A stretch of DNA of 64,000 nucleotides, from positions 248,001 to 312,000 of the forward strand of contig NW_026570298.1 in assembly GCF_019649055.1 (NCBI RefSeq). The letters are read 5' to 3'. Numbering within the stretch: the stretch's first letter is position 1; each line of letters opens with the position of its first letter. This stretch comes from Paramacrobiotus metropolitanus. Lineage: Eukaryota; Tardigrada; Eutardigrada; Parachela; Macrobiotidae. Of this stretch, positions 22,251 through 44,175 are shown one piece after another. The notes under the pieces were generated by a model that was not told the DNA's origin, did no database searches, and worked only from the letters and a program-made list of their open reading frames with translations. Position numbers and translations under genes: made by a program.

Positions 22251-23050
22251 TTAGTTCTCCGTACCTGATCTAAAAAGCTTAGACATGCAATGCGAGGACG
22301 GGATGAACGAGCTGCATGCACACGAGTAAGAGGAAACAAAGCTCGTTAACTGTGCCCGTGCCTCTGCAACACGGCCAACCCACCAAGGTACGACAGCCCG
22401 TACTATCACGCAAAATACTCGTACCCAACGACTGTTGAAAAGCGTAGCCTTTGTCGGTTCTTGATTTGATTTATTTTCGAATAGCCAAGCCCGTAACCGT
22501 ACGGGCACACTCGCATATCCGTTGCAGAACATCAAATATTCTAGGCCAGTCAAGTCACTACAACTGCTAAACACCAGTAATACCGAATACGTACGCTAGA
22601 GAAGCAACACCGTCACAGAACTGCTGTAGGCTAATACCGGCACAAACCTACGTCTTGCGCACAAGCCACAAAGCCACAGAACAACAAGATCAGTAACACT
22701 CTATATTGCATCCCGCATCCGTATCTCGAAGTTGTACCAGCTACCCGTGGGACGGTAGCTATTGGCAATGGTAGTTCAAACTTCAAACGCCGTTGCACGG
22801 TCGTAAATTAAGGCAAGCGCCATAACGATCAATAGCCCACGTCCGTACACCTTATGCAACGGAGAAACAATAACATGATTGAAATACGGCACTGAATAGT
22901 GGCAAACTTACTTCGACCCGCAAGGATCCGAAAGAACGTGATATCACATTAGTAAAAAGCTTCAACGCATTAAAACAGTCAACTTTTCGTGGAGCTTACG
23001 TTATCGAAAGGACAGGCCTTGTCATACGTCATCGAAAAGACAGGCCTTGT
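22251..23050. other. Spacer at the edge of the palindrome block
   Basis: 22,250-22,600 is degraded receptor flank. 22,770-22,960 matches 29,130-29,310 in direct orientation, with shared words such as AAGCGCCATAACGA and ATACGGC. No gene is supported. Confidence 0.45.
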
Positions 23051-23052
23051 CA

Positions 23053-23288: not shown

Positions 23289-23387
23289 TACACTTCACTT
23301 ACGTTGTAAAATTTTCAGTTTAGAATCAGTTTTCAATTTTTAACTGTACTTGAACATTTGCCAGCCAACTAGTTAGAGCAACATGTA

Positions 23388-23636: not shown

Positions 23637-24156
23637 CTGGCTCTCCCTTGCAACGCATCTGCAGTACAGGCCATATTTCTGTCAAGCTCGTTGTTTTCAT
23701 GTTCACAGATGAACGGCATGATGCTTTTGTTATGTTTCAATCGAATTCCTATGTTTATAAGCGGTCATGATGATATTTTTGGGTTTTAAAACAGATGGCT
23801 GTATTCATCACTGTACAGCACTAATGGGCTGAGATGACAAATAATACTGCAGTTTTGCTTACCTAAATCGTCACGGTTGGAGAAGACCGTGTCACGGTTA
23901 TATGTGATATGCGTGTCACCGCGTCACGGTTATACGTGATACACGGGATGGTTATACGTGACCGTCCCATATATCCCTTTATGCGGCATCCGCCAAATAA
24001 ATGGCCTTCTGATTCTTTTCATGCGGCTAATATAGTCCTTGAAGGAAACCATCTCGTCACCGTTGTTCTTGGCACACTGATCGCAAAAATTTCTTATACT
24101 GATCCGAACAACTCGACACACTTCACCGAATTCTTACGAATAACTTTGAGAATAAC

Positions 24157-24431
24157 CTTGTTCTGTTGAAGCATTTCACGCGAGCTATTCAGAGGGCGAT
24201 CTTCGCAGGTACCAATCTTATCCAAGGCATCGGAAGGGTTCGAACACAAAAACGCGTTAGCGCGCGCCTCTCCTGTTTGTTCCTTTCTTGCGTCGAACAA
24301 CTTCATCGATGAACTGACGAGTACTAACGCCGCAACTTCCCGCAGTTTCGAAGGACAGAGGTTGGAAAAAATAACGATCGGTGAGTTCTTCATAATTACG
24401 CCGCTATGGATATATGTCTCGTCTATATCTA
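24157..24431 (-). CDS. Candidate internal exon, unknown protein
   Basis: The open stretch is bordered by CTGGCAG on its 5' side and AAG|GTTATT on its 3' side. It encodes about 91 residues beginning DIDETYIHSGVIM. No domain is recognised. The sequence around its acceptor is repeated inverted at 34915-34995. It may belong to a damaged duplicate of a neighbouring gene. Confidence 0.3.
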
Positions 24432-25198
24432 CTGCCAGGTTAAAAGATGCGGTCAATTAGGCGTTTTTTTGGGTACAAAGAAATTAACCGTGGCGCGGTT
24501 AGTTTCAAAAAAGCAGTGACATGGTTAATTTTACTGTAAGCCGTAACACGGTGTCGTTTTACGACGTCGACTCAATAAAATGCATAGCACGGTTATGTGC
24601 AAAAGAAGCGCATCACGGGCACTTCTATGACTCGTCACCATTATCGGAACAGCGCTTAGCGGCTTGTTACTAATCTAATGAATTCACAAACCGAAGACGA
24701 AGAATTCAATTCACGAGACGCGGTTCATTTCTCCGCAAACCTCAACATGACTTTTCATAATTTGCTAAAAGCGGTCAATTTGGCACTATTTGCGTACAGG
24801 GCAACTAACCGTGACCCGGTCAAATTAAATATTGACGTGACGTGAAGCCCAAAACAAGGTCGTCCATATCTACTGCCCGGGTAACATCGTATGCAGCGAC
24901 CCATACATTGCGTTGTGCCAATGATTTCAATAAAAACAAAACCAATTCAGCGCTTTAAAATCAACTGCAGGCGTTTTCCTTACGAATATAGGGGAAATTT
25001 GAAACCGAAAATGGGCTTAAAGACCTCCACAGTGTTCTGCTTGCACAACTGAAAAATCAGCTTATCAAAAATATAAATGCACACTAAAAAAACTAAAGCA
25101 ACATATTATATCTAAAGCAACATAATCTGCACATTAAAGTAGAAAACTAAAATCTTAAGACAGCAGAAAATTAGGGAAGCAAAAAGGCCCCAAACTCA

Positions 25199-28100
25199 CT
25201 ATTGCAGTTCACTCTCTTTTGCCCAAGCGCGCAATTCATTGATGTGCGCTGACTGCAACACCAGTTTCAGTTTTACAAATCCGTCGTCCCGAGGTCCTTT
25301 AACATCTTCAAACGTGTATTCTTTGAGCTTAAGAAATCGCAAACGGCGACTGTCATCTCCGATTGATTCTGTTGGGTCCTTCGACATTTCGTCTTTCTTG
25401 TTACAAACATAGTTTAGTTTTGTCGGCAAATATTCAGCCACCCGGTAATATTTGTTTACTAAGACAGGGTTGCTTTCGCCTGCGTACAAAGCCCTGAAGC
25501 CTATGTCGACACCAAGCTTCCCTGTTTTTCGTCCAGATTTTATCATTCTTTTGCGCATCAGGAATACCTATAACAGTCGTCGATGTTAAAATAAATGTTA
25601 TTGTGATCAGCACACTAATTAAATGTCTAGGCGTAGATGAGGTAAATTACAGCCGTGTCACGGGTTAACAAATGGTGCTCTGGCATCGCATTTATTACTT
25701 ACATAACCATTAACGGTCGAAGTCGTAGCTTTTTCAGCGTCTGCATCAGATCCGTTAGTCTCATCACTACTTTCGGAATCTTGACTCTCAGCAGACTGCG
25801 ATCCTGATCGAACAATCGCCGGCTCGGCCGCGTCTGATAGGGAAACCGGTAACTCCGATACCGGCGGTACTTGAGGCGGAGGCAGGGGACTTCCTCGACG
25901 GGAGCGCGATGGGGAAGGCTCAGTCGGACCGCCAGGATTAGGGGTAGATGGTCCCCGCACTTGTCGGGCTGGTGAACTCGCAGCACACTAATTAAATGGC
26001 AAGCCGTAGGATGAAGTAACTTACAGCCGTGTTACTGTAAAAAAGTGGTGCTCTGGAACGGCATTGATTACTTACATCTCCGTTTTTGCTCGTAGCCCCG
26101 GTAGCTGCAACCGTTTCAGTAGCGCGCACATCGTTATCTTGAAAGGGCGCAGGCGGGGGCGGCGATGACAAATAGGCTGCGTCTACTAAGGAAAACGGTA
26201 ACTGCGATTCCGGCGGTACTGGTCCAGGCGGTGGCAAGGCATTTCCTCGATGGGCAGACGGTCCCCGCACTTGTGGGGCAGTTGGAGCTGGTGGGGACTG
26301 CTGTTGAGGTTGACCAGGCGTCAATGAACTCGGCCGCGTTCGCTGGGAATGTTTGCTGGGAACGCTGGACGCATCCGGAATTTCAAAAGCTGCTATGTAT
26401 CTGTTCCTTGCCTCCTGGTGCTCAATTGCTTGCACATCATTTGCTAAATTCATCGATTCACGGGCAATATCCTGCAACTATTCCGTATGTCAAACACATC
26501 ATACTACCGTTTCACGCTGTTAGTGAGTTCGCTGTAATACTTACCGCATCTGATGTAACGACAGCCCCATCTTCTTCATCATGGCTACCATCATCAAAGT
26601 CCTCCCTGTCATCGGATGATTGGTCAGAGTTCTCCCTGTCATCGGATGATTGGCCATCTTCGTCGTCATGGCTTGTATCATCGCTTTGGGAACTCGTCGG
26701 AGACAAATTATTCGGATTCGGCCTCCAGGCTTCTGCAGCTGGTAGGGACTGCTTTTGAGGTTGACCAGGCGTCAACGAACTCGGCCGCGTTCGCTGGGAA
26801 TGTTCGCTGGGAACGCTGGACGCATCCGGAATTTTAGACAGTGACCGTGAGCGCCCGCCTAAGGCTGCCATGAATCTGTTGCGCGTCTCCTGGTGTTCAT
26901 AAGGGCGCACATCATTTGCATTATCCTGCAACTATTCCGTATGTCAAACAAATCATACTACCGTCTCACGGTGTTAATGAGTTCGCTGTGGCACGGCACT
27001 TAATACTTACCGCATCCGATGTAACGCCAGCATGAAAATTTTCGATCTCGTGAACACCATTATCCTCACATTCCCCATATTCTTCATCATGGCTACCATC
27101 ATCGGAGTCCTCCCTGTCATCGGGTGAGTCGCCATCATCGTCGTGGGAACGCGTCGGAGACAAACTATTTGGATTCAAACCGGACGGATCCACAAGTGCA
27201 GCTGGCAGGGGCTGCATCACGGGCTGAATTTCAGCTCCTTCCGAACTCGATATGACTTCCTGGGCAACAGGGGGTAAGTTCCATTGTGCTGCCCATAGAT
27301 CATCAATGTCTCCATCGCCGCCAGTTTTGCTGGTCTGCTGCCGTTTCCCGAACGGGTTGACATCATTGAGGTCGGGAGCTGGTGCATTATCGAAAGCAGA
27401 ACTGATTATACCGATGAAGCCGGCAGGTGCCGGCGAATTTGCCCTTTGGGAACGCGCTTGAGACGAGCCATCCCCATGCGATGTCCAAGTTTCAAAGCCT
27501 CGTGGTCCCGAAACACGCCCAGCACTCTCATTGATGACGGTGACTTCTGTCATTATATCAGCCAAGCAGCTTGACTCGCACTCTTCTGCTTCAATAACAG
27601 TGTCCAATTCTCGTGGATCTCCTACATATTCATCAATGATGCCAGTTCCGCGAATCCGTTGCAGTTTGCGTGTTTGGCCGGAAAGACAATCGTCAGCTGG
27701 TCTTTTGGATGGTGCGAGAGACACGGTCCGAGACGCTTGAGGCGGCGCAGGCGAATGTCCTCGTCGTGGGGTAGATTTGGCCGAGACACTCCCCTGGTAA
27801 GACAACACAGCATCCTCTGGCCCGGTCCACGAATATCTAAGCATAAATTCAAACTCCCGGTCGATAGTGGGACCTGCCAAGGCAATTTTTTTTCCGTCGC
27901 GAGCCCTTCCGACGTACCGGTCGTTACTGAGAGAGTCCTGCAACACCAAACTTACAACTCAAGTGTTGCCGCGAAAAGTAATCTAGGTACGATTAAGCCG
28001 GTGTAATGTTTAACCGCGTCACGGTAATTGCAGTTTAGACTAACCTTAAACATCAAAAGCTCGTTTTCAACGAAATACGCAAACATCGGGAATCGTGAAT

Positions 28101-29071
28101 GGGGGAATCGGCACATTCCCAGGCGCCAGGCCCTGCCCATGAGAATAACTGCCCGGAAGTCCTTGTGAACTCCAAAAGACCAGTGGTGATGCTTCAACTA
28201 ATTACACAGACACGGTAAGCGAGATTAGTGACTTTAAGCGTCATTGCAACGTAACTTTGCGAAAACCTCGGGGCAATTCTACGGTATGTTTTTTTATCAA
28301 ATCTGTCAGTGTCCTCGTATTTTCCGGACCGTAAGAAAATCTGAGACGCTGTTTCGTTCTATAAGCCAAAAACAGCTCTTCCTGAACGGTTTCTAAGACG
28401 AAATTAACCTTTCGGACATCCTTTCCTGAAGCAAGTTCAAGCCTCAGTGCACTGGCAAGGGGAAAGCACTGGTTTTCCTTCTGCTTTTGCACATAAAACT
28501 GGGTGATTTTAAGACACGTTCCTTTAGGCAGACCTGTCAATGCCGCAAAAATTCTATGAAGTTCTTTCGGTAGCGGATTGTTGTTGGTATCCCAGTAATA
28601 ATAACGCTGCACTCCTTCCTCTCTTCGTATTCTGGCAAAGGTTACAACATGTAATCCAATGATCAGGATTCGGATGCCACGATCACCTCCCATAAATTGG
28701 TTGGCTTTGATGTCGCACATAAGCTTAAGCATGGCATCGCATCCACCCAACTTCGGAAACCACATGCGTGCAAGCATACCAGCAAGGCTCACAAACGGTA
28801 CAGTATTCCCCATGGAACCCTCTTCCCGAAACTTCTCAGCATGTTCACGTGTAATGTGGAGCTCGGGTATCGCCCAGTGGGAATCAACGTAGGCTGTAGT
28901 TGGCAGCAGCAGGTGGTCCTGATCGAAGTATAGCTCGTATCCTCCGACAAATTGAACAAAATTTATTGGGTAGGTGTGCTCTTGGAAAAGCTGGTACAAG
29001 TCGCCCAAGTTGTGCCGGATATAGTCACTGATCTGCGCTGCTTCCTTCGAATCAGTGACAGCAATGTATGA
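25199..29071 (-). CDS. Multi-exon gene with C48/Ulp1-like protease exon and Ser/Pro/acidic tail
   Basis: Exons, all joined in phase 0: 29071-28256, 28197-28045, 27937-27011, 26931-26545, 26477-26076, 25987-25703, 25567-25199; together about 1112 residues, 5' end not found. Exon 1 has a catalytic-type set: H141 in GLHVV, D161 in YYYWDTN, and Q201-C202 in KENQCFPLA. That is the His-Asp-Gln-Cys order and spacing of SUMO/Ulp1-type cysteine proteases. The rest is low-complexity: Ser/Pro-rich with repeated acidic DDRE/SDD runs. Exons 4 and 5 are duplicates (both begin LQD and share IPDASSVPS). Four introns hold the local palindrome. Exon 1 can also read to a stop at 28241 if the weak GTTACG donor is not used, which would make two genes. 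Confidence 0.5.
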
Positions 29072-29437
29072 CTGAACAATGGATTAACATAGTTAGAACA
29101 AGCGGAGAGATCACCTAACCGTGGCACGGCAACCAATAGGCACTGCAAGTTTAAACCCCGAAGAAAGGTAAGCGCCATAACGACCACTCATACCCATTTA
29201 CGTAAATCTGATTTTACCAATAAAGTTCGGAAGATTACGTACACCATATGCAATAACATTACTCAAATACGGCTTTGACTAGTGCCAAACTTACTTCAAC
29301 CCGCACGAATAGGAAATCAGCAGATAGCAAATTTTTGAATTCCTGAAACCAAGCACACATGCAGCAATGGATTACTACAGTGAAGTTTTCTTGGAACTTA
29401 CGGAATCGAAAGAAGACAACTTGTTAATGATTTTATT

Positions 29438-29994
29438 TTACTCGTAAATATCGGAAACCGGTGCATCATGCATCAAGGACAGACTCCTAGAGGCACTCTG
29501 GACTTCGTCCAAAACCACACATCCGGCTTGCTTCACCTCTTCACCAATTCTTTCCACATCGCCAGAACAAAGTAGTTCGTCAATATGGCGAACAACAGTC
29601 GGCAGGGTCTCGCCCATCGATGCGGATGGATTTTGATTGTTACCAATATTTTGGTCAGGCTTGCGTGAAAGGTCCTCTAGGAAAACTTTACTCGCGTAGC
29701 GAGCATTCCAATTAAAACAAATTTTCGACACATCAGGATCTTTGTCACCAGGTTCGAGTTCCATTTCGCATTCGGGGTTGCTGCATTCGTCGATCTTAGG
29801 TCGCAGAGGTTTTTTTCGAAAAGTGACTACGAGTAATGTCCCAATCAATTACTCATCCCAGGATGTAACCACAAAAAGGAACAGAATTTGCAACTTACGG
29901 TTTAATAAGCGCAATATTTCCCGTCGAATCCAGCGAATTAGATCGCGAATACTAAATCCCTCATAACGTTCTTTCTGCGTCAGATGATAAATTT
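29438..29994 (-). CDS. Two-exon gene fragment, unknown protein
   Basis: Exon A (29994-29899) follows TTTTGCAG and ends AACC|GTAAGT; exon B (29826-29438) follows CTCGTAG and restores the frame (phase 1). The product has a basic part (IRWIRREILRLLN), a CSNPECE cysteine pair and an acidic region, ending SDIYE at a stop. A 48-base open stretch with good splice borders (about 29292-29339) follows, so it may be the 5' part of the protease gene downstream. Exon A is duplicated at 23.5 kb. Confidence 0.4.
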
Positions 29995-30331
29995 CTGCAA
30001 AAGTTTGAGCATAAATGATTTTGCAAATGACCGTGCGCCGGGCTGAAAATGCTGTATACCGTAACACGGTTATCGTTAATCGGCCACCATGACACCTTAC
30101 ATGTCGCTCTAACTAGTTGGCTGGCAAATGATCGGATACAATAAAAAACTGGTTCTTAACAGAAAATTGTACAACGTGAGTGAAGTGTAATGTTTGCCTT
30201 ACTTTTGGCACGATTTACGCGGCGTTCGGTCGCCAAATCTTTCAAAATTTAATATCCTGTTTGATATACGCCTAGGAAAAAACCAAAGTGTTGTAGAACA
30301 TTCCGGTAGGACGTCAACTTTTTCATTATTC

Positions 30332-30869
30332 TTAATTAAGTTGGACAGGGAAGGAGTTTAGGCACTGGAAAGCATCATATGGAATCGGCCACTCTGTTTC
30401 CTCGGCCAAACCTTCAGCTAAGCGTTTGCGACGTTTTTTCTTCGTTTTTTGTTCAAGGTTATAGGAGCGCTTGTCAAACAGTTCCAAGAAATCCAAAACA
30501 GTTTGCAAGTGTTCGGATTCGCGGAGCTCGAAGATGGTCTTAATAAAGCATTTCCAAATCACATCAGTCATCATTCTCAGGAATTTCCCTGTCAAAATTT
30601 TGTCAACAGTCGCAGGCGATTCCTCGTTACGTATCTGAGTGCGCCGAATTTTGAAGTAAGTGTTTGCGAGATGAAGCATAACCATATCCTCAGTGATCTC
30701 GTCTTTCTCTTCTTCCTCTTCGTCACTTTTCGCGGTGACCATAGAGATTGCAGTAAAGAGGGGATCAACTGCTGTAGCGGGAAACTGGTCGAAATTTAAC
30801 TCAGGGTCGGCTATCTGGTAGCCATAGCGATCCAAATTGTTTGTCAGCGGCGAGTCGATGACGTTGACT
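30332..30869 (-). CDS. Terminal exon of an unknown protein with acidic and basic runs
   Basis: About 178 codons from a GCTAAG acceptor to the stop. The protein has DEEEEEKDE, a leucine-rich helical middle (HLQTVLDFLELFDKRS) and a nuclear-localisation-like KKKRRKR before the C-terminus. The frame is closed by TAA just upstream of the acceptor, so it must be spliced to upstream exons, possibly those at 31.66-32.40 kb. The phase of that junction did not match simply. No family is recognised; a nuclear role is a guess from composition. Confidence 0.45.
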
Positions 30870-30907
30870 TAGCAACAAAGTTTATCAATTATTTTCTGAA
30901 TCTGAGC

Positions 30908-31640
30908 GGTGACCTACGCAAACTTGCAAGTGTACAGCCGTTTCATGGCTGTATGTACAACTGTTGTGCTCTATAATCGTGCCAAGGTGTGGCAAAATTG
31001 TCGTATTTTAGTCATTCCACAGTTTTGTAACAGTACCACGGCTAAGAATCGACAAACTGAAACTCTTGCTTCAGCGTTAAAACGGAAAGCATACAAAAAC
31101 TGCTGTGAAATAGTGGCACGGTTAAACACTAGAAATAAATTTACAAGTCGTACTCTACCTAAGAAGGAGGATGACAAGAAAGCGCAACTTACGCGAATCT
31201 ACTGCAGTTGTACAGCCGCGCAATGGCTTTATGTACAACTATTGTCCTCTTAACCGTGCCACGGGGTGGCAAAAATGTCGTATTCTAGTCATTCCACAGT
31301 TTTGTAACAGTACCACGGCTAAGAATCGACAAGCTGAAACTCTTGCTTCAGCTGTGAAATAGTGGCACGGTTAATCACTAAACAGAAGCCTTATCACAAA
31401 AAATGAAAACCAGATAGTATGGACAATGCACAGTACAGTGCACAAGATTTGAAATAAATTTACAAGTCGTACCCTTTCTAAGAAGGAGGATGGCAAAAAA
31501 GCGCAACTTACGCGAATCTACTGCAGTTGTACAGCCGTGTAATGGCTTTATGTACTATAACAGTGCCACGGGGTGGCAAAAATGTCGTATTTTAGTCATT
31601 CCATATCACGGCTAAGAATCTACAAACTGAACTCTAAACT
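30908..31640 (-). repeat. Tandem repeats containing splice signals
   Basis: About three copies of a unit of nearly 300 bases; they share the stretch from GCAACTTACGCGAATCTACT to the ACAGTTTTGTAACAGTACCA region, and the last copy is shorter. Read on the minus strand, each copy has CTGCAG, nine bases, then a GTAAGTTGCGC donor identical to the donor ending the upstream exon at 31661. An intron and its donor were thus amplified in tandem. The units also hold half or full copies of the block palindrome. Confidence 0.6.
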
Positions 31641-31660
31641 GATACACGGGCGCAACTTAC

Positions 31661-32404
31661 GCGAATCATCATAGGACCCTTTCTTATGTTTTCGTCTTCG
31701 TTTCGCTCCTTTTCCTCCCTTTGAACGTCCAGAGCTTGAGCTATCTGGATTCCAACCATACGGTTTAAAGGGCGAAGCTTCACGCCCTTTAGGAAAGGAA
31801 CAGTTCCTCGGTCTGATAGACGCTTGCGAGCTTTACGGTAGGCTTCGGGATCTACTGGCTCTACATCCACGTTGTAAACTCCGAAATCGACAACCTTGGC
31901 GTTCTCCAGCTCAGTAGTTAGACGGGCTTTGTATCGCTTGTATTCCCGCGCCTTTTTATTGACGAAACGGAAAGGTTCCGTTCTGAGAAGATCTCTGAGG
32001 AAGACGTCGAAGGTCTCAAACGGCTGCAAATGCAAAACATATGGCACACAAACACACACACAAACACACGCACACAAACACAAACGGCAGGTTTACCTTT
32101 CGTTCGAACTGGTAAAATTCTTGCTTGGGTTTTTTGGAGTCTCAATCTTATCAGCTTCAACGTAGTCCTCATCGGATTCTGCTTGATAACTAGACTTGCG
32201 CTTCGGAGCCTTCTTCGTGTGCGTACCTGTGGTCCTCCGCTTCTCAGTGATTTTTTTCTTCTGGTGCTGGCTCGTTGATGGTTTCTCAGAAGCCTTTCCC
32301 CTCCGAGGCTGCGTCCCCGCTTTGCTGGCTGCCTGTGCCTTTTCCAGCAGTTTCGCACGATCGCGGTTCGTCGCCTTCGGTTTCGTTGGCCAAGCTCTAC
32401 CCAT
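31661..32404 (-). CDS. Lysine-rich gene, two exons, unknown
   Basis: Exon 1 starts with ATG at 32404 and encodes MGRAWPTKPKATNRDRAK followed by a Lys/Ser-rich tail with SDEDYVEADK. Exon 2 (32023-31661) encodes QPFETFDVFLRDLL... then a charged helical region, and ends ATTCGC|GTAAG. The intron between them has a CA/TG simple repeat. With the obvious donor at 32096 the phase does not fit the preferred frame of exon 2, so a microexon or another donor is likely. Composition suggests a nuclear, nucleic-acid-associated protein; nothing firmer. A relic of exon 1 lies at 42017-42202 on the other strand. Confidence 0.45.
32041..32092. repeat. CA-rich microsatellite
   Basis: Imperfect (CA)n/(CACAAA)n run of about 50 bases, inside the intron of the lysine-rich gene, directly after the donor. 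Confidence 0.8.
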
Positions 32405-32863
32405 TGCGCCAAACGATCATCGTCTTTCGTCGTCAAAATACTCTCAAAACCGCGAATTACAAGCCAAATTCTGACAATTTTCAAGTTCGATAACACTTCA
32501 AGTGAGACGGCGATGTGAAACTGTACCATGCAACGGCTGGACAGATTGGTGTTCAGCAGTTCCATGTCTCGACAGCGAGCGTGTCAAAGCATGCCTGTAC
32601 TACTGTGGTGCCAAGTCGAAACAGCGCCCGCCCGCACAGTGAGTTACATGCTAAACGGATACAACTCACTGTAGTACTTCACCTCACCCGCACTATTGCG
32701 CTGCACATTGTGTGCACTGAAAATGTGGCCTGTTCAATAGGAACTCGCTAGAACTTTCAGTTGGTGTGTTTCAAAGTCGCTGCACGTGCATCTGCTGGTT
32801 CATAAAAAGCCTTCGGATTTTTTGCGCACACTGTTACTTTGTTCTGGATAAGTTTGTGAAGAC

Positions 32864-33834
32864 ATGTCTAGTCGACAAGAGACGCCTCGGCCCGCCCCTG
32901 GAAGAATGCTCAACAAGATGAAACAAGACATGCTGAAACGTGGAGTGCTGACCACGGAGACCTATCCCTACTGGCCTGGGCCATTGAAAACGAAAGCAGA
33001 ACGAAAAGTTTATGTTCCTCCTGAGGAGTACGTTCCTACTTTGGCTTCCTCTGAGGGAACGACTTCACCGGGACGCGATCAAGGCTCAGGTATGCTTCGG
33101 GAAAAGTGAAGTTTAAAAAACCGGATGTGTTCTGTTTCTGGTTTGTTGTGGTTTTTGGGGTGCCCCCGGCAGGGCAGGCAGGCAGCGAGGACAGTGCAAG
33201 GCAAATTGTTAACGTTGAATTCTGTCTAGATGCCGGCACCGCGAAAAGGGGGCGTGCTGAAGCGAAAGCAGTGCAGGGACGCGGGCGCCCTAAAGGCTCT
33301 GGAGAAGGTATGTACTTTTCTGTTTCTGGTTTGTTGTGGTTTTTGGGGTGCCCCTGGCAGGGGCAGGCACGCACGTGTTCTAACGTGTAATAACGTGTTC
33401 TTGAATTCTTCAAATAGCTTTGAAAGTGTAAATGTTTTCTTCTAACTTTAGTCTTCTGCAAATTAATTACTTATATTGACTTCTTATTTTTAGGTGCCGG
33501 TGTCATCAAGAGAAAGAGTGAGTATTTAAGTTATTGAATTCGGTTTAGCTGTTATCTAACGTTTGCTTCTCTGTAGCTGCCGGTACTGGTAAGCGCGGCC
33601 GTCCTCCCGGAAGCGGCAAGAAAGCTGGTGGAAGCGCGCCGAAGTCATCATCTGGACGCGGTCGTGGACGTCCTCTGGGAAGCGCCAAGACTCCACATGG
33701 TATGGAGCGCTTTTGCAGGTGCAGCTGCAAAATTTGTATACAGTAGTGGTGATTATTTTGTAGAAAAACGTGGACGTTCCAAGAAGGATGCTCCTCCTCC
33801 AAACGCGCAAGACGGAACTGCAATCTCGGGGTGA
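32864..33834 (+). CDS. AT-hook (HMGA-like) protein, five exons
   Basis: Exons 32864-33089, 33230-33307, 33494-33517, 33577-33699, 33764-33834, all joined in phase 1 with GT/AG borders; 173 residues. The N-terminal 75 residues include a PYWPGPLK stretch. Exon 2 has the AT-hook GRGRPKG, exon 4 has KRGRPPG and GRGRPLG, and exon 5 has KRGRSKK. Almost every downstream exon begins with the same glycine/AGT-type junction, as if made by exon duplication. AT-hooks bind the minor groove of AT-rich DNA; the protein should be a chromatin architectural factor. A polyadenylation signal AATAAA follows at about 33866. The donors GTATG/GTGAG and acceptors TAG are all good. Confidence 0.75.
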
Positions 33835-33889
33835 AGATTACGAGGACAACGTTGCAATGAGCGCCTAATAAAGATTTGAATTCTGCTCT

Positions 33890-34145
33890 CAGCATGAGGC
33901 TCTCCTTTGCAACGTATCTGAAGTACAGGCCATATTCTGTGTTGTATTCATGTTTACAGATGAACGGTATGATGCTTTTCTTATGTTTAAAAAGATGTTT
34001 ATAAGCGGTCATGATGATGTTTTTGAGTTTTTAAACAAACGACTTCGTCAGAAACTGTACAGCACTAAATGGCTGAGATGACAAATTATACTGCAGTTTT
34101 GCTTACCAAATTCGTCACGGTTAGAAAACACTGAGGCACGGTTAT
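33890..34145. repeat. Segment duplicated at 23636-23905
   Basis: Direct copy, about 80 percent identical by eye, sharing ACAGATGAACGG and GCGGTCATGATGAT, and ending at copies of the TCACGGTTA half-palindrome. It forms the 3' flank of the AT-hook gene. No coding potential. Confidence 0.65.
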
Positions 34146-35260
34146 AAGTTGAGTTGGCAAATTCTGTCGGTACTCGAAGCGATTCCGTACCCATAGCGAT
34201 CCCTGTCGTCTGTCAGCGGTTTACGTGATAACAATAACCTAGCAAAATGGTTAATCAATGATTTCCTGTGTCACTGCATTTGTACGACTGTTTGGTTTCA
34301 TAATCGTGCGACGGTTCGACAGGATTTCCACTTCTAGCCGTTGCATGGCTTTCTACCGTAGCACGGTAAAATATCGTAAGCTCGCTCGGGTGTCGGAAAG
34401 GTCGGGTGCGCCCGGTAAACCAGTTCAAGTTTGCGAGAGGTGTAAATGTTTGCAGAGTAAGTGTTAGCAATCGCTTTTGGTTCGTTCACTTCGTTTAATA
34501 ATTTCTATTCAATTTCTTAGCAGTAATCAGTAAACTGCTAAGGACCGGGTCACTGTCAATGCATAAGCAAAACCGAGTCACGGTCAATATCCCTGCTACC
34601 CGCGACACGGTCGTCTATTTATTTGATGCACATAGAACACCAGGCCAGCATATTTAAAGGTTCGGATCATAGGTAAAGTGCATAAAATCCACTTTGTATA
34701 TGATGCAGCCGAGAAACCACACGCGGCTAACCATGTCGAAAGTGCGTACGAGCCCCTTCGAGACGAGTACGCGCACAGCGCATCAACTTTTGTCTTGATT
34801 AAAAAATTGCAAACAATTTACTCTTTGGACTGGTTCGATAAAGCATATCGTTTACGCTGATATTAACCATGTCACGGCAATATTTAAACTGACCGGGCCA
34901 CGGTTAGTTGCTTTGCACCCAAATAGTGCCTAATTGACCGCATCTTTTATGTTGTTACCCTGGCAGCAGATATAGACGAGACATATATCCAAAGGCGTAA
35001 AGACTTTGTTTTGGGCTTGATGCCAAGGATTTTTGTGATTAGTGGCGGAATTTCGCGAGCATCCAAATCCTGATCATTGGCTTACATGTTGTAACCTTTG
35101 CCAGAATCCTAAGCATTTGCACGTACGATCCGGGTTGATTGAAGCACAATGCACGTCAGGACAATGCAAGGATGCATTGAGATGACACTTTATTTAGACA
35201 AAGTCATCGAACACTAAAACACTGCAGTCATACATCATCAGTAAACAGTAAAACATTCAT
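34146..35260. other. Spacer rich in half-palindromes
   Basis: Holds copies of the block palindrome at 34572-34584, 34865-34877 and 34892-34904 plus several half-sites. 34915-34995 is an inverted copy of 24401-24480. Short ORFs here are not supported as genes. Confidence 0.45.
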
Positions 35261-35424
35261 TTATAGAAACCTTAAGGAGCTAACCTCAAAAAAATAAGAT
35301 ACCTGACACAAACAAATATAATATGAGGTCATCCTAGATAACAAAACCAATAATACTAAGACGAACAACAATATCTGCAAAGGTTTGTCAAATCCGCTTT
35401 TTTCTCGAAAATTTTGGAACTGCT

Positions 35425-35791
35425 TTAACGATTCGCGGGGCTGGTAGGCGGCTTTGTATTCGGCTTTGTAGGCGTAAGGCAAGCCGGCGATCGTTGAGCC
35501 AATTCTGCAGACGATTTCCGCTGCTTTGTTGGAGCTGACATCGATAAACACGGAACACGCAATCTTTCTTCTGAACTAACGTTATCCTGATCGCCGTACG
35601 ATTTGCCTTCGGTATCCAACTCGTCAAGAGCATCCAACATTGATCGCTTCTGTATATCAGCAACTCAACTTAAAGGATTTCCAAGTACGTAAAAGTACCT
35701 GTACATTGAAGTTACGCGCGGACATAGCCGGAGTAGTGGCAAACTCATCAGAAGGCCGAAGCGCCGGCTGAGAGCTTTTGGCTTTCTGCAT
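35425..35791 (-). CDS. Small two-exon gene, 103 residues, unknown
   Basis: Exon 1 (35791-35705) starts MQKAKSSQPALRPSDEF; exon 2 (35649-35425) continues KRSMLDALDELDTE and ends in Thr/Pro/Lys-rich TPTKPNTKPPTSPANR. The intron is 55 bases with GTACAG and TATACAG borders, phase 0 on both sides. No domain is recognised; it resembles the Ser/Pro-rich tail exons of the protease gene only in composition. A perfect copy of the block palindrome lies 45 bases upstream of the ATG. Confidence 0.5.
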
Positions 35792-35835
35792 TAAAGAGAG
35801 AAAACCCACCAATATTAACACTACATTAAATAAAC

Positions 35836-35856
35836 TTTGACCGTGACACGGTCAAA
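35836..35856. promoter_or_regulatory. Perfect 21-base palindrome upstream of the small gene
   Basis: The ten-base arm TTTGACCGTG and its exact complement flank one central A. It is the most symmetrical copy of the block palindrome, 45 bases before the ATG at 35791. It is a candidate operator or promoter element. Confidence 0.45.
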
Positions 35857-36257
35857 TCAGCTTATGTGTACCTTAACAACAACGTCCGATTTCGCTGGGC
35901 CTCTGGCTACCTTAGCATCGGTTGATGTACTGGCTGCCTGCGAGAGTACGTCATTTGACTGCCCGACACTACCACACAGCAAAGTTCAAACCGTGACACG
36001 TTCATATATCACAATACCATTGCTTGGGCCTCAGTTGCAGCAAATTCATCAGAACGCAAAGGGACCAGCTTAGAACCCTTAAAATCGTGCATTGCGGACT
36101 GAAACACCAAATTGGCTGCCGACAGGAATCAGGTACGCCGTTGACTAACCGGCACTACCAACTAGCAAATACAGTCGTGACCCGGTCACAAAGCACAGTG
36201 TCCGTGTCACGGATGAACAAAGTCCATAAGCACAGTTATTTCAAAGGACGGACGAGA

Positions 36258-36503
36258 GGTTGGAGAACATACTTATTGAGCAAAGCTGGCTTTGGACAGA
36301 CTACAAAATAAACGGAATCACAGTATCAATACCGTGCCCTCGGACAAGGACGGGCGAAAATTTCTTCTAAAGGACGGGCGATAGGCGCTACCTGTTTTTT
36401 GATTCAACGTTTAAAATTGGAGAGCATACATATTGAGCAAAGCCGGCTTTGGGCAGACTACAAAATAAACGGAATCACAGTAAAAATACCTTGCCCTCGG
36501 CTG
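36258..36503. repeat. Tandem duplication of an 85-base segment
   Basis: 36258-36345 and 36419-36503 share TTGAGCAAAGC and ACTACAAAATAAACGGAATC with few changes, 160 bases apart. It may be a duplicated exon edge on the minus strand, but no frame is convincing. Confidence 0.55.
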
Positions 36504-36800
36504 CAGAACGCGAAGGCGCTAGCTCAGAACCCTTGGAGTCTTTGCAGACTAGTACTGGGCCAAAGCGATTATAAAGCGTAGTTGTACCTTTTCACGAGCG
36601 GACACTTGATGGGAACTCCCATGAGAGTGGAGGCTCAGTTTCCCTTCTGAAGATTCGGCGGCTATCCGGTTTCTGGCCGAGTTCATGTCTTCCTAGAACA
36701 TTGCCGATAAAAATGCCGTGCACATTATCACCTATGATATAAACCGTGGCACGGATGTTTGGGAAAAATGCCGTGAAACGGTTGACTAACTGACCGCAAT

Positions 36801-36839
36801 ACTCGTCACCATTATCAGTAATTGATAATGGTGACGAGT
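36801..36839. repeat. Perfect hairpin with 16-base arms
   Basis: ACTCGTCACCATTATC, a 7-base loop, then its exact complement. One arm also occurs alone near 24630. No T-run follows. Confidence 0.8.
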
Positions 36840-37518
36840 GTTGGGATGTTATAAAGTGTTGCTTTTTCGCTTGCTTTTAGTGGTTGTCGTTTGTTGATAC
36901 ATGTGTATCTCGGTTTTCAAATAAAGGTTAGAGCGCGCATATTATCACTCATCTTAATTGTCAATGCTCTTATAACACCCAACCTATTCGGTACACCGAA
37001 AATGTCCTCGAAAATGTCGCAACACAGCATAGACTGATTTTCGACTTTGAAACACTGTTGCTTAGTGAAACAGAATTTGCTAAAGTAGCCCGCCAATGTA
37101 AATATGAAATCACATAATAGTTAAAAATATAAAATAATAAAAAGAAAATTCATTTGGAAAATTGCATTTTAGTATGGAACTGAATCTCCGACCTTCAACT
37201 GAGCCAGAACGGGAGTTAATACTACACTAGCTACGCAAAAGTTTAATTTACCGCGCCGCCGGAGACGCTAGTGTGTACTGCAAACTCTGTGTACCGGCTG
37301 CCCGCCCAATACAAATACTGCACGAGAACGCTACAGAAGGGTGTGAGATTGCATCTGCAGCTTCGCCTAATAACTTTATTATTTTAACGTGTACTATGAG
37401 AGACCTTTTGAGTTTTTCCATTTGAGTCTAGTTTTTGCAAATAACACGTACTGCATGGTTTCAGGAAGTCAGAAAATTTCGTTTTAGTTTTCCGTGCGCT
37501 GTGCGAGTGCACTATAAT
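36840..37518. other. Spacer, 5' region of the homeodomain gene
   Basis: AT-rich, no supported gene; presumably contains the promoter of the gene starting at 37519. No block palindromes were seen from here until 42309. Confidence 0.4.
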
Positions 37519-39631
37519 ATGGAATCGACGAACCCAAATCATCCGGAGCTTCGCTCTATTATCAGTGCCAGCGCCAGCGCCCGTCGCGAAACAAGTTCTC
37601 GTTCGCACTTTCGAAAAGACCAGACCCAACTTTTGCAGCAATTTTTTAAAATATGCCGCCGTCCCAACTACAATCAGCGGCTGGCGATAGCCGAAAAAAT
37701 TGGTATTAAAGATTCGGAAAAGCGGGTCCAAGTCTGGTTTAAGAATCGTCGATCTAAAAAACACCAGGAGGATGGCCCTGCCAACTTTCAGGCCCTGTCT
37801 CTCCCATCCGTCATTCCTACTCCTCCTTCTGTGATGCTCGAGCAGCCAGGTACTAGCGGACTACAGCCAAAGGAACCAGACACTGACCGACAACAGTCCA
37901 TAGAATCGGATGACGACATTATGTTCAAGTTCGATCTGCGAAAAGATTTAACGTAAGACAGAACTTTGCCTTTTACTTACGTAGTCTGTATTCATGGATG
38001 GTAATCATACTACTCGAAGTGCTACTCGGACAATTTCTGCTTTTTTAATTAACTAATTTGAGCGGAGCTGACTGATGTTGCAGGGATTTGTCTGGACTCG
38101 GGAATTTTTGCCAAAGCCTGGTGGAGAAGCTGAAAATGGTAAACACTTTTTTTTCTCTAAGTTATGCGTAATTTTTTGAAGTATGATGTTTTCTTCAGTG
38201 TATATAGTTTACTGCAGTTTAATAAGCTGTACTGCATTGTGAGCTTTGACAGAGGGAAATGGAACCTACAGTAATTACGCTGGCACTGGATCCTTCGGAT
38301 GGTGTTGATATCAGTGACATTGCAGGATTTATATCAAATCAATGGAAAATAACGGGAAAGAATGCCGAGGTTGGCGATTTGTAGTTTAACGAAAGATAAC
38401 TGCGCAGATCGTGTTATATATAATTTTAATGGTTTTTGACTTTAATTGCAGTTAGTATCCCACGGTTATTTTAGGTAATGGTTATTTTAATGTTCTTGGT
38501 TGTTTTAGGTAATGGTTATTATGGGCGCACAAGCTCTTGAGCACACACAGGTCTTGAGAACTGATAGAGCATGACCGTTTAAATAAGGTATCAAATTTTT
38601 TGCACGATCGATTGTCAATCCGTAATGCAATCGTGCTGTTTTCGGGGTTTTTTTATTTACTGAGTAATTTTTTAAAATATGGGACGTACGTATTGGATTT
38701 TCTCAAAAGTTGAGTTTCTGAAGTTGTTTCCTTGTATCATGCAGAAGCATGCGTTACATGCAGTTCCGTAATTGTTTGTTGTTTTTGTTACAGGTGGACG
38801 GCTTTTATAATCTGCAGTATTCGATTGTCCCGGGTGAAATAAAACACATCGCCGACAAGCAGACCTTCGTTGAACAGATGCTTCAAAAACATGATGACCG
38901 GACCACCAGTTCGCAACGCAGTAATCTGGAATCAGTTGTCACTTCGCAGCTGGATAAATCACCCCGTGAAATAGGCCCTTTGTTACCCGATATTCCGCAG
39001 GCTACAACTACCGCTGCCGGCCCTGTCATACCTGAGTTGCAAGAAGCTATTATCAACGGCCCTGATGTTTTACCCGGAATTTCGCCGGTATCTGTGATTG
39101 CAGGTTCGTGTATAATTGAATCTTTTTAATTCTGACGGGAACAATTTATGTAGCGATGTAACGTACGTTACTGCAATGATTTCGATTACTTTTTTATACT
39201 AATTTAGGATACCCATTCATAATTCATAAAAGAGAAAGCTCGGAACCAATTTAACCGCTGATTACCTTCAAATTAATTACCGCTGATTACCTTCATTACC
39301 TGATTTAGGAGATATTGATCGAGCAATTCCGGTGTCCAGCGGAGACTTATCGAAGACTGCAGCACGCACTTCACCATTAATTATGCGGACCGCACTGAAT
39401 CTCCCGCCAGTAAATGGACTGTTGAATAAATTTGCCAACGAGCGCAACCTCACCACATCGGATCAGCCGTACTCTGAGGCGAAGAAGAATCGTGTGTTCT
39501 GGACTACTTCTTCGCGGCAGCTATCGTTAATGTCCGAGCTTGTCACTGGCCATGAGCAGGTTACATTCATATTTGAGCCCCTTGGTGATAAGAGAGTTCT
39601 TTCTGTGACCGTGAAAGATAGCTCTATTTAA
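37519..39631 (+). CDS. Divergent homeodomain protein, five exons
   Basis: Exons 37519-37952, 38084-38138, 38253-38369, 38794-39103, 39309-39631 join without frame errors to 412 residues. Residues about 24-83 form a homeodomain: QTQLLQQFF for helix 1, and RVQVWFKNRRSKKHQ for helix 3 with the invariant W, F, N and R. Lys at position 50 predicts the TAATCC-type preference of K50 proteins (Bicoid, Otx and Gsc classes). The spacing from helix 1 to W48 is about two residues longer than normal. The remaining 330 residues have no recognised domain. It should be a nuclear transcription factor. The third donor (GAG|GTTGGC) is weak. The class cannot be assigned further. Confidence 0.75.
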
Positions 39632-40230
39632 TTTATCATTCTAAATATTGTTTGTTTTTTTATTGTCTGGCATTGCGACCGAAAGATTTTTTATTGATAT
39701 TCTGTGATCAAGTAAGTCATTGTGATTATTATTTTTTCCCTCTGTATTTCATTTGATGGTGTTGGGATTATTTCATAACGTTTTGAGGTTTTTTGACCTG
39801 ACGATGTTTTTAATGTTTGTACCTGATGATGCTCAATCATGAGGATTTCTGCATGAAGCGGAAATGAAAAATGGCGAATGGAATATCGAGTTTGTAGTTT
39901 TTGTAAATTAACGTAGTAGAAAGGCAATTAGTCAATATTTTAGTCAGATCTTAAGGGAAGTGGCCCGGTAGATGGTACCAAAATCGTGTACATCCACGGA
40001 AACTTTCATTCTCGCGCACTCCCAAACACATTCTTGTTTCGTTTTATGGCATTCTGTAGTCAGATGATTTCTATACACTATTGTGAAAACCGTTTGTGCG
40101 CGCAACATCCGGTTCGAGAGTTATGGCTGTAAGAAAATTCTCAAAAGTTTAAGTGCTTTCAGGTGTACCAAAAGTCTCATTATGGACCGACCTCCTTCAA
40201 ATTTTGCATGTAAATGCGCATGGCCATGAG

Positions 40231-40510
40231 GATCGTTTTTACACCGATCCAGACTTCCACGATTTTTTTCAAATTTTAAAATGAATTTCAAAATTTTTGA
40301 AATTCATTTTAAAATTTGAAAAACATGCTAGAACAGTGGATCGGTGTAAAAACGTTCTTCGTGACGTTTTTACGGATCGTTTTTACACCGATCCAGACTT
40401 CCACGATTTTCTTCAAATTTTAAAATGAATTTCAAAATTTTTGAAATTCATTTTAAAATTTGAAAAACATGCTAGAACAGTGGATCGGTGTAAAAACGTT
40501 CTTCGTGACG
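40231..40510. repeat. Tandem pair of a 144-base palindromic element
   Basis: Each unit has inverted ends (GATCGTTTTTACACCGATCC and its near complement) and a central perfect palindrome of TTCAAATTTTAAAATGAATT type. The second unit starts at 40375 and is almost identical to the first. It looks like a small foldback MITE that was tandemly duplicated recently. Confidence 0.8.
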
Positions 40511-40705
40511 CTTCGTTCAAAATTTCAGAGTATCGGGTTCTTCCTAAAATTGATATTCCTAAAATTGGTAAACTAAACATGATAGAGTCGCGAGGTCGTG
40601 TACGGGTCGCGAGATATTATGGCTATACAGTTTATCGAAATCTCGCAAGCTCTTAGCAGTGGAGAAAGCACATGGATCCCAGATTGCAGGTACGAAAGAA
40701 GGAAA

Positions 40706-41133
40706 ATGTCCCAGGATGCGTTGCAGGAACCCGGGAATCTATCGTTCATCATCCTAGCAAAGCCGGGGTTGAAGCTTGGATCGGAAACACTCTACCGAGT
40801 TTTTGGAAACAGTGACGTGCTTCAGGCACTGTGCGGAGGCCCAGACAACCGAAAAATCGCCATCCAGGTATGCGGAATGTGGTAATAGTCCGTCATTTGA
40901 ATCGCCTTGCGTACCAACCGCGAAATACTACTGTTCTGTACTAATGTTCTTCATGTTAGTACTATTTTAATTGTTTGGTTCTGTGCCTTTTTCAGCTATT
41001 GGCCAAGGAGCCATCCAAAGAAACACAACAACAGGAGACCGTGCGTACCAAGCGCCTAACAAATCTGCCAGCGAGTGCTTCTAACGTCTTCGCTAACCTA
41101 CGCCAATGGAGTCGGGACGGAGACCTTACGTAG
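40706..41133 (+). CDS. Small two-exon gene, 99 residues, unknown
   Basis: Exon 1 (40706-40867) starts MSQDALQEPGNLSF and ends ATCCAG|GTATGC; exon 2 (40996-41133) follows TTTTTCAG, keeps phase 0 (LLAKEPSKE) and ends DGDLT before TAG. No domain is recognised. The frame is open upstream to 40598, so the ATG is the first after a possible acceptor at 40689. An independent role or a place as the 3' end of a larger gene are both possible. Confidence 0.45.
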
Positions 41134-41151
41134 ATCGACCATGCGGCGCTG

Positions 41152-41415
41152 ATGTTCCCCCAGCATCGGTACTGCCTTTTTACTGAAAAGCGACCCAGAG
41201 CAGCCGCGGAAAGCTGCCTGCAAGGCGAAGATAATGATTGGGATCGGACGTTTTTCTTACTCCAAAAAGCCGATGCAGCTGGTTATATCTCGCAGTATTT
41301 GACGTTTCTGGACCAGATTCCCAACCAAACCACCAAAGATTATCACCTCCAAAACCTGCGCGCGCGCGCTAACCTGCCCTTGTTTCTGCTGATTGTAAGC
41401 CTGCTTCAAGTCTAA
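41152..41415 (+). CDS. Possible small ORF, 87 codons
   Basis: Opens 19 bases after the previous stop. Contains a reasonably amphipathic stretch (FLLQKADAAGYISQYLTFLDQ) and a GC-rich run. No domain, no paralogue in the window. Weakly supported. Confidence 0.25.
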   Translation: MFPQHRYCLFTEKRPRAAAESCLQGEDNDWDRTFFLLQKADAAGYISQYLTFLDQIPNQTTKDYHLQNLRARANLPLFLLIVSLLQV

Positions 41416-42016
41416 GGTTGATGATGCGCATATTGTTAACAATTGTGTTACTGCTATATTGATTGACATTGTGGTGTTCAGCTGAAGTCGAAGTCTGCGC
41501 CTTCCAAACCGGCGCCTGTTATTGCTACGGAAAGACATGAAATTCGCATGTCTTTCGGGAAATGGAAAGGTATGGTGCAATATGACCATGTCGGGTAAAT
41601 CGCGGATTGAATTTTGTTGTATCGCAGATTGAATTTGAATCATGAATTGAATTCTTGTCTACCTCGTGAAACCTCGTACCTCGTGAATTTGACGATATTT
41701 GGGAATACAAATCCTGAAACGTTAGTTATAATTATGACACAATTTGGACAGCGGATAGGTCAACGGAGTGTGACCAAAATATCACGCCACCAAAGCAAAT
41801 AAGCATAAATGTAGAAGTAGAAAGTATAAAACAAAAAAAAGAAAGTTTATTCAGAAAGTTCGAGCAAGGCCCGTCAGTAATACACTAGCTGGGCTTACTG
41901 CGTTAAGTATTTCGCCAAAAGCGCAACGTACCGTCCATAGGCGCAAGTGCTGACACCACTGACACTTTGTGCGCAACAAATCCGACGGCTCTTTTTGAAC
42001 TGCAAATTATGCTCGA

Positions 42017-42202
42017 GCTTCGCCAACGAGACCCAAGGCGACGAACCTCGATCCTGAGAGCAGGGCGCAACTTCAGGAAAAGGCACAGACCGCGGGCAAG
42101 CGTGGGATGCGGACGGGAAAAGCTTCTGAGGAGCCAGAAACGCGTCGGCAACAAAAGGACGAAGTCAGTGAGAAGCGGGGGACGACAGCGAAGCGAAGCT
42201 GA
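42017..42202 (+). pseudogene. Relic of the lysine-rich gene exon 1
   Basis: Aligns with exon 1 at 32404-32180 (shared PKATN, EKAQ, GKASE and SEKR), in opposite orientation. It lacks the start codon and ends at a TGA before the conserved acidic part. Confidence 0.55.
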
Positions 42203-42778
42203 AATATTGGAATGGATTGGAATCGCCAAAGTTGCGTATCCAGGGGTCGTACTTACGGTGCCACGTCAAGTACAATGAATGACTAGCTCTCGGTTAAAGT
42301 GATTAGGTACCGTGTCACGGTTAACGTTAGTACTCTATGGTAGCCTGCGTGCCTTTTCTACTACGGAAATGCGTTCAAAAAAATTATTCATATTCAGCTT
42401 TACCTTTTGATGGTTTATATCCATATGTGTCATATTCACCAAAAACGTATTGTGTCATATTTAGCTTCCAAATTAGTGTATTACCGTTGGTGGGGTTTCT
42501 GATATCTGATGCGAATGCTTGCATCGATTATTGGTAAAAATTTAGAAATTATTTGCGTTAGCTTATTATAGGTCCGCCTGAACTTCCCGCCTGATATTAT
42601 TGGCGCTTATATTGCCACTTGACTACGCCGTTTGCTGAAGATGTAAGCTTCTTCACTTCACTCGTCTGCATAAACACCAGCAACTGCAAAGTGCGCGCCG
42701 CCCGGTGGGAGAAAGGCTCGTACCTCAGCGTACCTATTACTTTTCACGATGCATTATTTTAACGAAATGGCTGTTCGC

Positions 42779-44175
42779 CCGAAACTCCCGGGCGAGAAGC
42801 CAAACGGCTATTCGCCCGGGATCGATCCCGGGCGAGAAGCCAAATGGCTATTCGCCCGGGTTTGGACTTTCACCCCTTGCAGGTGGTATCATAACAGAAA
42901 CAAAAGATCACAGACAGCGACGGCGAGCGACACTCTCCCGTGATCTGCCTGTTCCTTTTGTAACTAGGACTTTTTTGGGTAATTCGCTAACTCGTAACAT
43001 CACCGACGGTCACCGACGAACCATCAAACCTCGTTTTATCGTGGTACGGGTGTGTAATCCACTCCACTAGTGGCAGCTTAGAAGTTGCCGTTGCAATATG
43101 CATGTAGTTAGTGTAAAGAGCAAAGTCCGCTCCTTTTAAATGCGCGCTAAAATTTTCAAAAGCAAATCGCCCACGTTTAAACTACAACTTTTATAAGTAA
43201 CCACGGGACATTCTGATGCTATAAATTCAGAAAATTCTCAGTTTTTGCAGAAAGTTAGAACAACTATATAGGTTGCCTAAAAAAATTATTTCATGTGCCA
43301 TGGCCAATGGGCGTGGCCAAAACAGAATTTAAAAATTAATTCTACACTGTGTTGTAGCCTATAGGCAGTGTACCGCATTATACCTTACAAGACTAATTTA
43401 AACCTTACCGAACAACCTGTACCAGTACGAGTCCAGCTTTCTCGCTTCAAATTTTTATCTGTGCTTCACAAGCGGCTGTTGGGAATACTTCTTTTTGTTT
43501 CGAGTCTTACGACTTCGACGTAATATTTGAACAATTACTAACAGAAATCAAAGTGAATCGTTTCTAATACAAAAATGAAGCGCAAACTGTATAATCTCCA
43601 GAAACGGGAAACTACATACTACAAGCGAGCAACACAGATAAAAATCTGAAACGAGAAAGGTGGCCTCGTACTGGTACAGGTTGTTCGGTAAGGTTTACAT
43701 TAGTCTTGTATGGTATAATGCGGTACACTGCCTATAAGCTACAGCACAGTGTAGAACTAACTTTAAAATTCTGTTTTGGCCACGCCCATTGACCATGGCA
43801 CATTTTCTTTTTTTTTTCCATTGCCATTTTCTGCGTTAACATTTGGGCCCGGCTGGAATGTTAACGTTAACATTCTCGCCCGGCTCACATGTTAATGCGT
43901 TAACCGTTAACATGTTAACTGTTTTGCCGGCTACACACGTATACACCGGTTACAGTGTTACACTAAACACTTATAGAACGTAAAAATTGCTACTCGTGCG
44001 GCCCACGTTCTCCGGCGAAAAGCCGTTTGGCTTCTCGCCCTGGAGTCCCGGGCGAATAGCCGTTTGGCTTCTCGCCCGGGAGTCCCCGGGCGAATAGCCG
44101 CTTGGCTTCTCGCCCGGGAGTCCCCGGGCGAATAGCCGCTTGGCTTCTCGCCCGGAGTCCCGGGCGAATAGCCGC
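42779..44175. repeat. Nested hairpin repeats of CCCGGGCGA type
   Basis: Two units at 42779-42865 and about four at 44020-44175, in opposite orientation, each about 38 bases and itself able to fold (GGGCGAGAAGCC against GGCTATTCGCCC). They bracket the 171-base inverted-repeat element. ORFs across them are repeat translations only. Confidence 0.75.
43293..43803. mobile_element. Inverted-repeat element with 171-base arms
   Basis: 43293-43463 and 43633-43803 are inverted copies with about 85-90 percent identity (ATGTGCCATGGCCAATGGGC against its complement), around a 170-base unique centre without a gene. It is typical of a foldback MITE. Confidence 0.75.

Follow-up and report, generated by a model that had tools for sequence, protein, structure and literature searches.

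The palindrome ACCGTG-N-CACGGT, a 13-letter word of the form 6-N-6, is clustered in one part of the 64-kb stretch of Paramacrobiotus metropolitanus DNA analysed here (C78:248001-312000, referred to as the window), and the 18-kb block that carries the cluster is, judging from alignments, one copy of a dispersed, low-copy element with diverged copies and intron-rich genes. When both strands were counted, the window held 35 sites with at most two mismatches, against 2.0 expected (standard deviation 1.44) from 100 dinucleotide-preserving shuffles, the richest of which held six. Of the 35, 30 fall within 23886-42321; 16 of these have no more than one mismatch, and three are exact. The cluster described in an earlier, sequence-only reading of this DNA is therefore real, and its estimate of about twenty near-perfect copies was a fair one. 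That reading had also noticed no copies elsewhere in the window. Five sites lie outside the block, each with exactly two mismatches (970, 22744, 22789, 46066 and 52916). Of these, 22744 and 22789 fall within a fragment of the element, and 970, 46066 and 52916 are the number expected by chance. Because 36783-42308 contains no site with two mismatches or fewer, the true cluster spans about 22.7-36.8 kb, plus a single exact copy at 42309. Of all 4096 palindromes of the 6-N-6 form, none is as common in the 20-kb block as ACCGTG (32 occurrences; the next unrelated word, AATTTT, has 20), and no other of the 180 orderings of its letters exceeds 7 there (the runner-up has 7), the median being 0. Half-sites (ACCGTG or CACGGT, full sites counted in) number 37 in the 20-kb block versus 22 in the remaining 44 kb. 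The features of the locus are the following (names such as C416 denote other contigs of the genome).

22744..22801, unstranded: pair of sites (22744 and 22789, two mismatches each) in a rearranged element fragment
23886..23930, unstranded: pair of sites 32 bp apart, 23886 (exact) and 23918 (one mismatch)
24487..24820, unstranded: array of sites at 24487, 24513 and 24540 (26 and 27 bp apart; 24513 with three mismatches) and a site at 24808
25201..32404, minus strand: main gene with about 13 exons, which take up 5147 of its 7204 bp (open reading frames, ORFs; conservation in C8, C502, C416 and C488)
25652, 26506, 26960, 28013, 29118, 30058, 30976, 31110, 31253, 31359 and 31560, unstranded: 11 intronic sites with at most two mismatches
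30868..31660, minus strand: 793-bp intron with tandemly duplicated units and five sites of at most two mismatches (self-alignment)
32865..33836, plus strand: gene for a small basic protein with GRGRP motifs, divergent from the main gene and siteless (ORFs)
34130..34904, unstranded: intergenic cluster of sites at 34130, 34303, 34355, 34544, 34572, 34599, 34866 and 34892
35200..36876, minus strand: degenerate second gene of this strand (alignments, intron sequences)
37521..39631, plus strand: homeodomain gene, siteless inside (Pfam Homeodomain, E 1.4e-12)
40620..41395, plus strand: gene of an unassigned family, with two copies in C416 and one in C9
42015..42321, unstranded: inverted remnant of the first exon of the main gene, with the exact site 42309

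The main gene is characterized by a lysine-rich start, a 272-residue exon with a possible cysteine-protease-like motif, and C-terminal exons that encode acidic tails and are partly tandem duplicates, introns included (25702-27937). The small basic protein gene is conserved in C8 and C488, and its GRGRP motifs are ones which we take to be AT-hook-like. The fragment at 22744..22801 is homologous to C502 11406-11696, and its two sites match those at C502 11414 (exact) and 11454. Spacings of 28, 27 and 26 bp occur among the last five sites of the intergenic cluster. Within the degenerate second gene, 36580-36701 matches the end of a Ulp1-like (Peptidase_C48) gene of C416; the sites 35840 and 35990 fall in its GT-AG introns, and 36201, 36743 and 36770 lie nearby. 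The homeodomain gene is linked to the element in the window, in C488 and in C416. The window also contains a miniature inverted-repeat transposable element (MITE)-like imperfect inverted repeat of about 245 bp (23048-23292), a self-complementary unit of 144 bp, present as two nearly identical copies in tandem (40225-40510), and tandem arrays of 38-bp and 31-bp units (44014-44175, 48802-48944 and 49410-49792).

Copies of the element and the distribution of sites

The block is regarded as a copy of a dispersed, low-copy family because its DNA aligns with C8 (78-86% identity across stretches of more than 1 kb), C502 (68% over 3.1 kb, higher in shorter pieces) and C416 (69-76%), and because two main-gene exons gave few protein matches in the genome (12 and 6, the 12 including fragments of a single copy). 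The element is at least about 14 kb long, and palindromes are present in copies that have diverged to about 70% DNA identity. The ratio of nonsynonymous to synonymous substitution rates (dN/dS, NG86) for exon E3 was 0.25-0.56 in nine of ten pairs and 0.84 for the window versus C8; in three pairs each, it was 0.42-0.53 for E6 and 0.62-0.88 for E5. By this measure, E3 and E6 were under past constraint and the window copy is now decaying. The main gene of the window is broken, with a stop within the E5 frame and an E3 frame that ends earlier than in C8. C416 carries a 3.4-kb inverted duplication, 93% identical, which runs to the contig end (6254-9564 and 21509-24879), and C8 contains a 102-bp satellite with long open frames (L012:4327-6624).

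Across the genome (170 Mb, 533 contigs), 378 matches with at most one mismatch were found versus 368 for the reversed control pattern, and therefore the palindrome shows no general enrichment and stays at background level outside the element. The exact copies (30, against 15 for the reversed pattern) are nevertheless clustered, with 21 of them in five places: C78 (3), C8 (3), C416 (8), C502 (6) and C94 (1); the other nine are scattered. Two exact palindromes with mirror-image flanks lie 20 kb apart on one contig (L013:5835 and L014:6010, that is C60:120835 and C60:141010) and may mark the two ends of some unrelated repeat or inverted duplication. With up to two mismatches, C416 holds 27 sites in 24.9 kb and C502 holds 26 in 14.8 kb. 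The element loci together carry 123 sites in 86.8 kb, including 7 siteless kb around a retrocopy, and ten control loci with the rest of the window carry 15 in 144 kb, nine exact ones included; nine of the control loci were taken around isolated exact sites and one between two of these. The loci on C8, C416, C502 and C94 were first picked for their exact sites and were later found again by protein likeness. C488 was found by protein likeness rather than by the motif, and it holds 17 sites in 12.7 kb (8 in 4.7 kb and 9 in 8 kb). Among further loci found in this way, C17 has three sites in 6 kb and C250 two in 6 kb. Sites are present in or next to each of the six places where the E3 protein is encoded (C78, C8 twice, C502, C416 and C94); on C94 they lie about 4.4 kb away. 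The earlier reading had named as a refutation that every copy lies inside one known repeat family. Taken literally this nearly holds, but the family is the large element, for which no known counterpart could be assigned, rather than the palindrome itself.

Within the element, sites with at most two mismatches lie outside the tested exons. The counts cover the window main gene, with exon limits set by hand on the minus-strand sequence and several intron ends off by a few bases, and stretches of C416, C502, C8 and C488. In the window main gene, none of the 11 sites is exonic although exons make up 71% of its length; when three mismatches were allowed, one site of 19 was exonic. Seven of the 12 listed introns hold a site (nine with three mismatches). 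In the four other copies, 0 of 30 sites fall in trimmed exons, which make up 56% of the sequence (13278 of 23520 bp); untrimmed stop-to-stop ORFs placed 7 of the 30 in exon-like stretches, all of them ORF overhangs into introns. A locus on C106 (L024), also related by protein likeness, has no site with up to two mismatches in 7 kb because it is a partial intronless retrocopy of the main gene (L024:3331-6000, C106:242331-245000). Aligned with the C502 gene, it shows seven gaps. Four of them are introns bounded by splice-type borders, and two of these four bear sites (three in all). Another palindrome was looked for in this siteless locus, and only A/T-rich words stood out. The retrocopy is followed, from about L024:6437, by a stretch that can be read as cytochrome b with the invertebrate mitochondrial code and is probably a nuclear insertion of mitochondrial DNA (NUMT).

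This placement bears on a rival view in which the sites would act as operators of ordinary, coordinated transcription, a single factor of the host or the element driving the element genes in the same tissue. Sites within or next to several of the block's genes, and the intergenic cluster at 34130-34904, agree with it. A promoter, however, would need few sites, whereas here they extend beyond gene starts to seven of 12 introns along a 7-kb gene; moreover, a pre-existing host factor would be expected at host genes, and the genome background is at chance. We therefore regard operators as an unlikely explanation, though one to be taken seriously.

Form of the sites and proteins of the element

The arms of the 123 sites are conserved at 93-97% in positions 2-4, 87-89% in positions 5-6 and 77% at the outer base. 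The centre base is free (30/20/20/30), the arm consensus is identical in all six copies tallied, and beyond the 13-mer the flanks show weak base preferences only. Neighbouring sites are spaced 26-28 bp apart in 15 pairs, against 0.62 expected and a maximum of six in 5000 random placements, and further pairs stand at 52-56 bp. Spacer sequences differ from pair to pair, except in pairs shared between copies, and the spacing is therefore not simply that of a tandem repeat. Tandem duplication did multiply some sites along with intron pieces and exon-intron modules (26283-26565 with 26734-27031). One tandem pair lies in a window intron (30925-31343 and 31203-31635, by self-alignment), and the matching part of C8 also holds a pair of repeats (positions 15665-15871 and 15894-16107 of the joined stretch).

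Such duplications are the point in favour of a functionless origin, in which a small insertion or an introner-like sequence would have multiplied within the element. Against it stand the differing spacers, the little common sequence past the 13-mer and the sites between genes; such a sequence should also have spread outside the element, where the background is at chance. This explanation is very improbable, and the footprints of a tiny transposon, one of the two readings offered earlier, find no support in flanks and spacers of this kind, even though part of the multiplication did come from tandem duplication of introns.

Changes in the arms were one-sided in 141 cases and two-sided, with both arms altered at the same position, in four, one of the four being complementary, where 11 two-sided changes would be expected if the arms varied independently; the two-mismatch limit biases the count of doubly changed arms downward. 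Compensation between the arms was not seen. An RNA hairpin acting in introns, for example as a splicing or small-RNA signal, would suit the many sites that are intronic and removed by splicing, but its stem would have at most 5 bp around a 3-base loop, and arrays also lie between genes. This candidate was rejected on the uncompensated arm changes and has hardly any probability left.

The proteins were searched against Pfam in two sets, 70 ORFs at E<=0.05 (best 25 of 26 families) and 112 ORFs at E<=0.01 (six families). In C416, a Ulp1-like peptidase C48 (PF02902) was matched at L005:1696-1920 (25.9 bits) and L005:1200-1670 (21.2 bits; cut-off 20.7), and only remnants of it are present in the window. 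The 272-residue exon gave no Pfam match above the cut-off, and its best PDB sequence match was unrelated (E 0.27). An H-D-Q-C order in it may resemble that of C48/adenain and would make it a candidate cysteine protease. A siteless paralogue of this exon with 40% identity lies on C1 (L026:2011-2727, C1:2853011-2853727) without conservation of the possible catalytic cysteine; it may represent a host ancestor or another element family. Two structure predictions for the main gene, the first of them for the 272-residue exon, gave nothing usable (predicted local distance difference test, pLDDT, 30 and 53). When one main-gene exon was compared with 5.8 billion proteins, 7996 candidates were scored and none reached E<=0.01. 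Homeodomain and peptidase apart, no relatives of the conserved proteins were found outside the genome in Pfam, in PDB or, for that one exon, in the large protein search. The only zf-C2H2 match (E 2.3e-4) was to an untraced ORF among the 112. An endogenous virus was considered and rejected, as no relatives of alignments A2 and A3 (two exons) were found among viral contigs.

The list of families also bears on replication, excision or transposition, in which the sites would serve a recombination protein of the element in the manner of subterminal repeats. Iterated, phased palindromes do resemble iterons and subterminal repeats. However, no transposase, integrase or polymerase is among the Pfam families listed for the 70 and 112 ORFs, and hits to the transposase of Kyakuja-Dileera-Zisupton (KDZ) transposons are on other contigs. 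A transposase should need the element ends most, whereas the sites are spread along introns and gaps rather than gathered in one or two places (the ends were not located). We consider this explanation improbable.

A proposed self-recognition reading of the palindromes

The clusters limited to one family, the siteless exons wherever tested, the phased sites of dimer type and the background level elsewhere lead us to a reading to which we give an even chance, namely that the palindromes are binding sites of a homodimeric protein, most probably encoded by the element, that marks the element's own copies. The predicted sites, on double-stranded DNA, would be spread across the non-coding part of a large, low-copy mobile element, in its introns and in the gaps between genes. 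The binder is perhaps made by the element itself, and the main gene or the AT-hook gene would be the first candidates. It would coat the element copies and keep them expressed or tell them apart from host DNA, the effect being self-recognition or anti-silencing. The binding itself, the element as source of the binder and an effect on silencing rather than, for example, on replication are inferences from sequence. The site oligonucleotide for which a specific binder is proposed is ACCGTGNCACGGT. The earlier proposal of a site for a dimeric regulator agrees with this in part: the free centre, the independent arms, the siteless tested exons and the 26-28 bp spacing speak for it. Not visible to that reading was that the block is one element copy and that site clusters recur in other copies.

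Several points weigh against self-recognition. The relatives on C1, C3 and C244 are siteless (5, 5 and 6 kb) and C9 has one site in 6 kb, so that only some of the element's relatives are marked by the motif. The copies are related, so counts across them are not independent, and the downward bias in doubly changed arms belongs here as well. Identity at sites exceeded that of other aligned non-coding DNA in all six comparisons (two further loci had no aligned sites), by a few points; because this excess is slight (resampling 0.05-0.28), selection on single sites would not be proved by it. Neither a transposase nor element ends nor a target-site duplication was found, and the word mobile is therefore based on the dispersed, diverged copies. 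No binder was identified: among the conserved proteins the homeodomain is the only DNA-binding domain that could be recognised, and the usual homeodomain targets do not resemble ACCGTG.

The opponent of such a binder is likely to be small-RNA or chromatin silencing, because an exon-by-exon search of the genome gave no match to the DNA methylase PF00145 but 57 Piwi-domain exon matches. A fuller version of the self-recognition reading is possible, though on balance doubtful. In it, an animal element would have evolved self-tagging independently of plants, by means of a dimeric element-encoded protein and a 13-bp palindrome placed in most non-coding gaps and phased at 26-28 bp for cooperative coating, and would so evade silencing by Piwi or chromatin in a host that lacks DNA methylation. 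The diverged relatives on C1, C3 and C244 would then carry different tags of their own.

Comparison with known systems

KDZ DNA transposons are large and can carry Ulp1-like proteases, and the present element resembles them in its size and in the Ulp1-like protease gene of C416. Membership was rejected, as the three KDZ transposase hits are on C65, C129 and C515 and none is on an element contig. In the subterminal repeats of CACTA or Ac elements, many copies of a short site are bound by an element protein near the ends, whereas the present sites run along the element.

The closest known working principle is that of VANC in Arabidopsis. The VANDAL21/VANC21 motif is reported to be highly enriched in one element family, mainly in introns, gaps and other non-coding parts, locally dense and sporadic outside the family; it is amplified by intron tandem repeats, and VANC proteins show tandem peptide repeats and repeat-associated exon changes (PMC5735166; on anti-silencing by VANDAL21/VANC21 see also PMC10398659). 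Likewise, the present motif is concentrated in the non-coding parts of one element family, its target regions are amplified as intron tandem repeats (30925-31635 in the window, and in C8), and the main gene has tandemly duplicated C-terminal exons. VANC21, however, recognises YAGTATTAY, described there as nine bases long, non-palindromic and arrayed in one orientation (PMC5735166), whereas the present motif is a 13-base palindrome phased at 26-28 bp. DUF1985, given there as the VANC protein domain (PMC5735166), is not among the Pfam families listed for the 70 and 112 ORFs, nor is a MULE transposase, the element copies being incomplete. The host is an animal with no PF00145 match, unlike Arabidopsis. 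For one host exon, the nearest relative with a name comes from the nematode Plectus sambesii (60%), and a nameless one is nearer still (69%). Since motif shape, protein family and host differ, membership in the VANDAL family is not claimed, and the likeness is proposed as one of principle.

Among the titles and beginnings of abstracts listed, there was no such animal case, and the motif, in five spellings, had no occurrence in the open-licence papers searched. Sequence-specific self-recognition by a transposon has already been described for plant VANDALs. If the reading given here is true, the present element would be another such case, apparently unrelated to the first and from an animal in which no DNA methylase is recognisable, with introns kept and multiplied as binding platforms and with a 13-base motif that is directly testable. 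Alongside the VANDALs, it would show that elements have repeatedly found ways to lift their own silencing while leaving that of all others in place.

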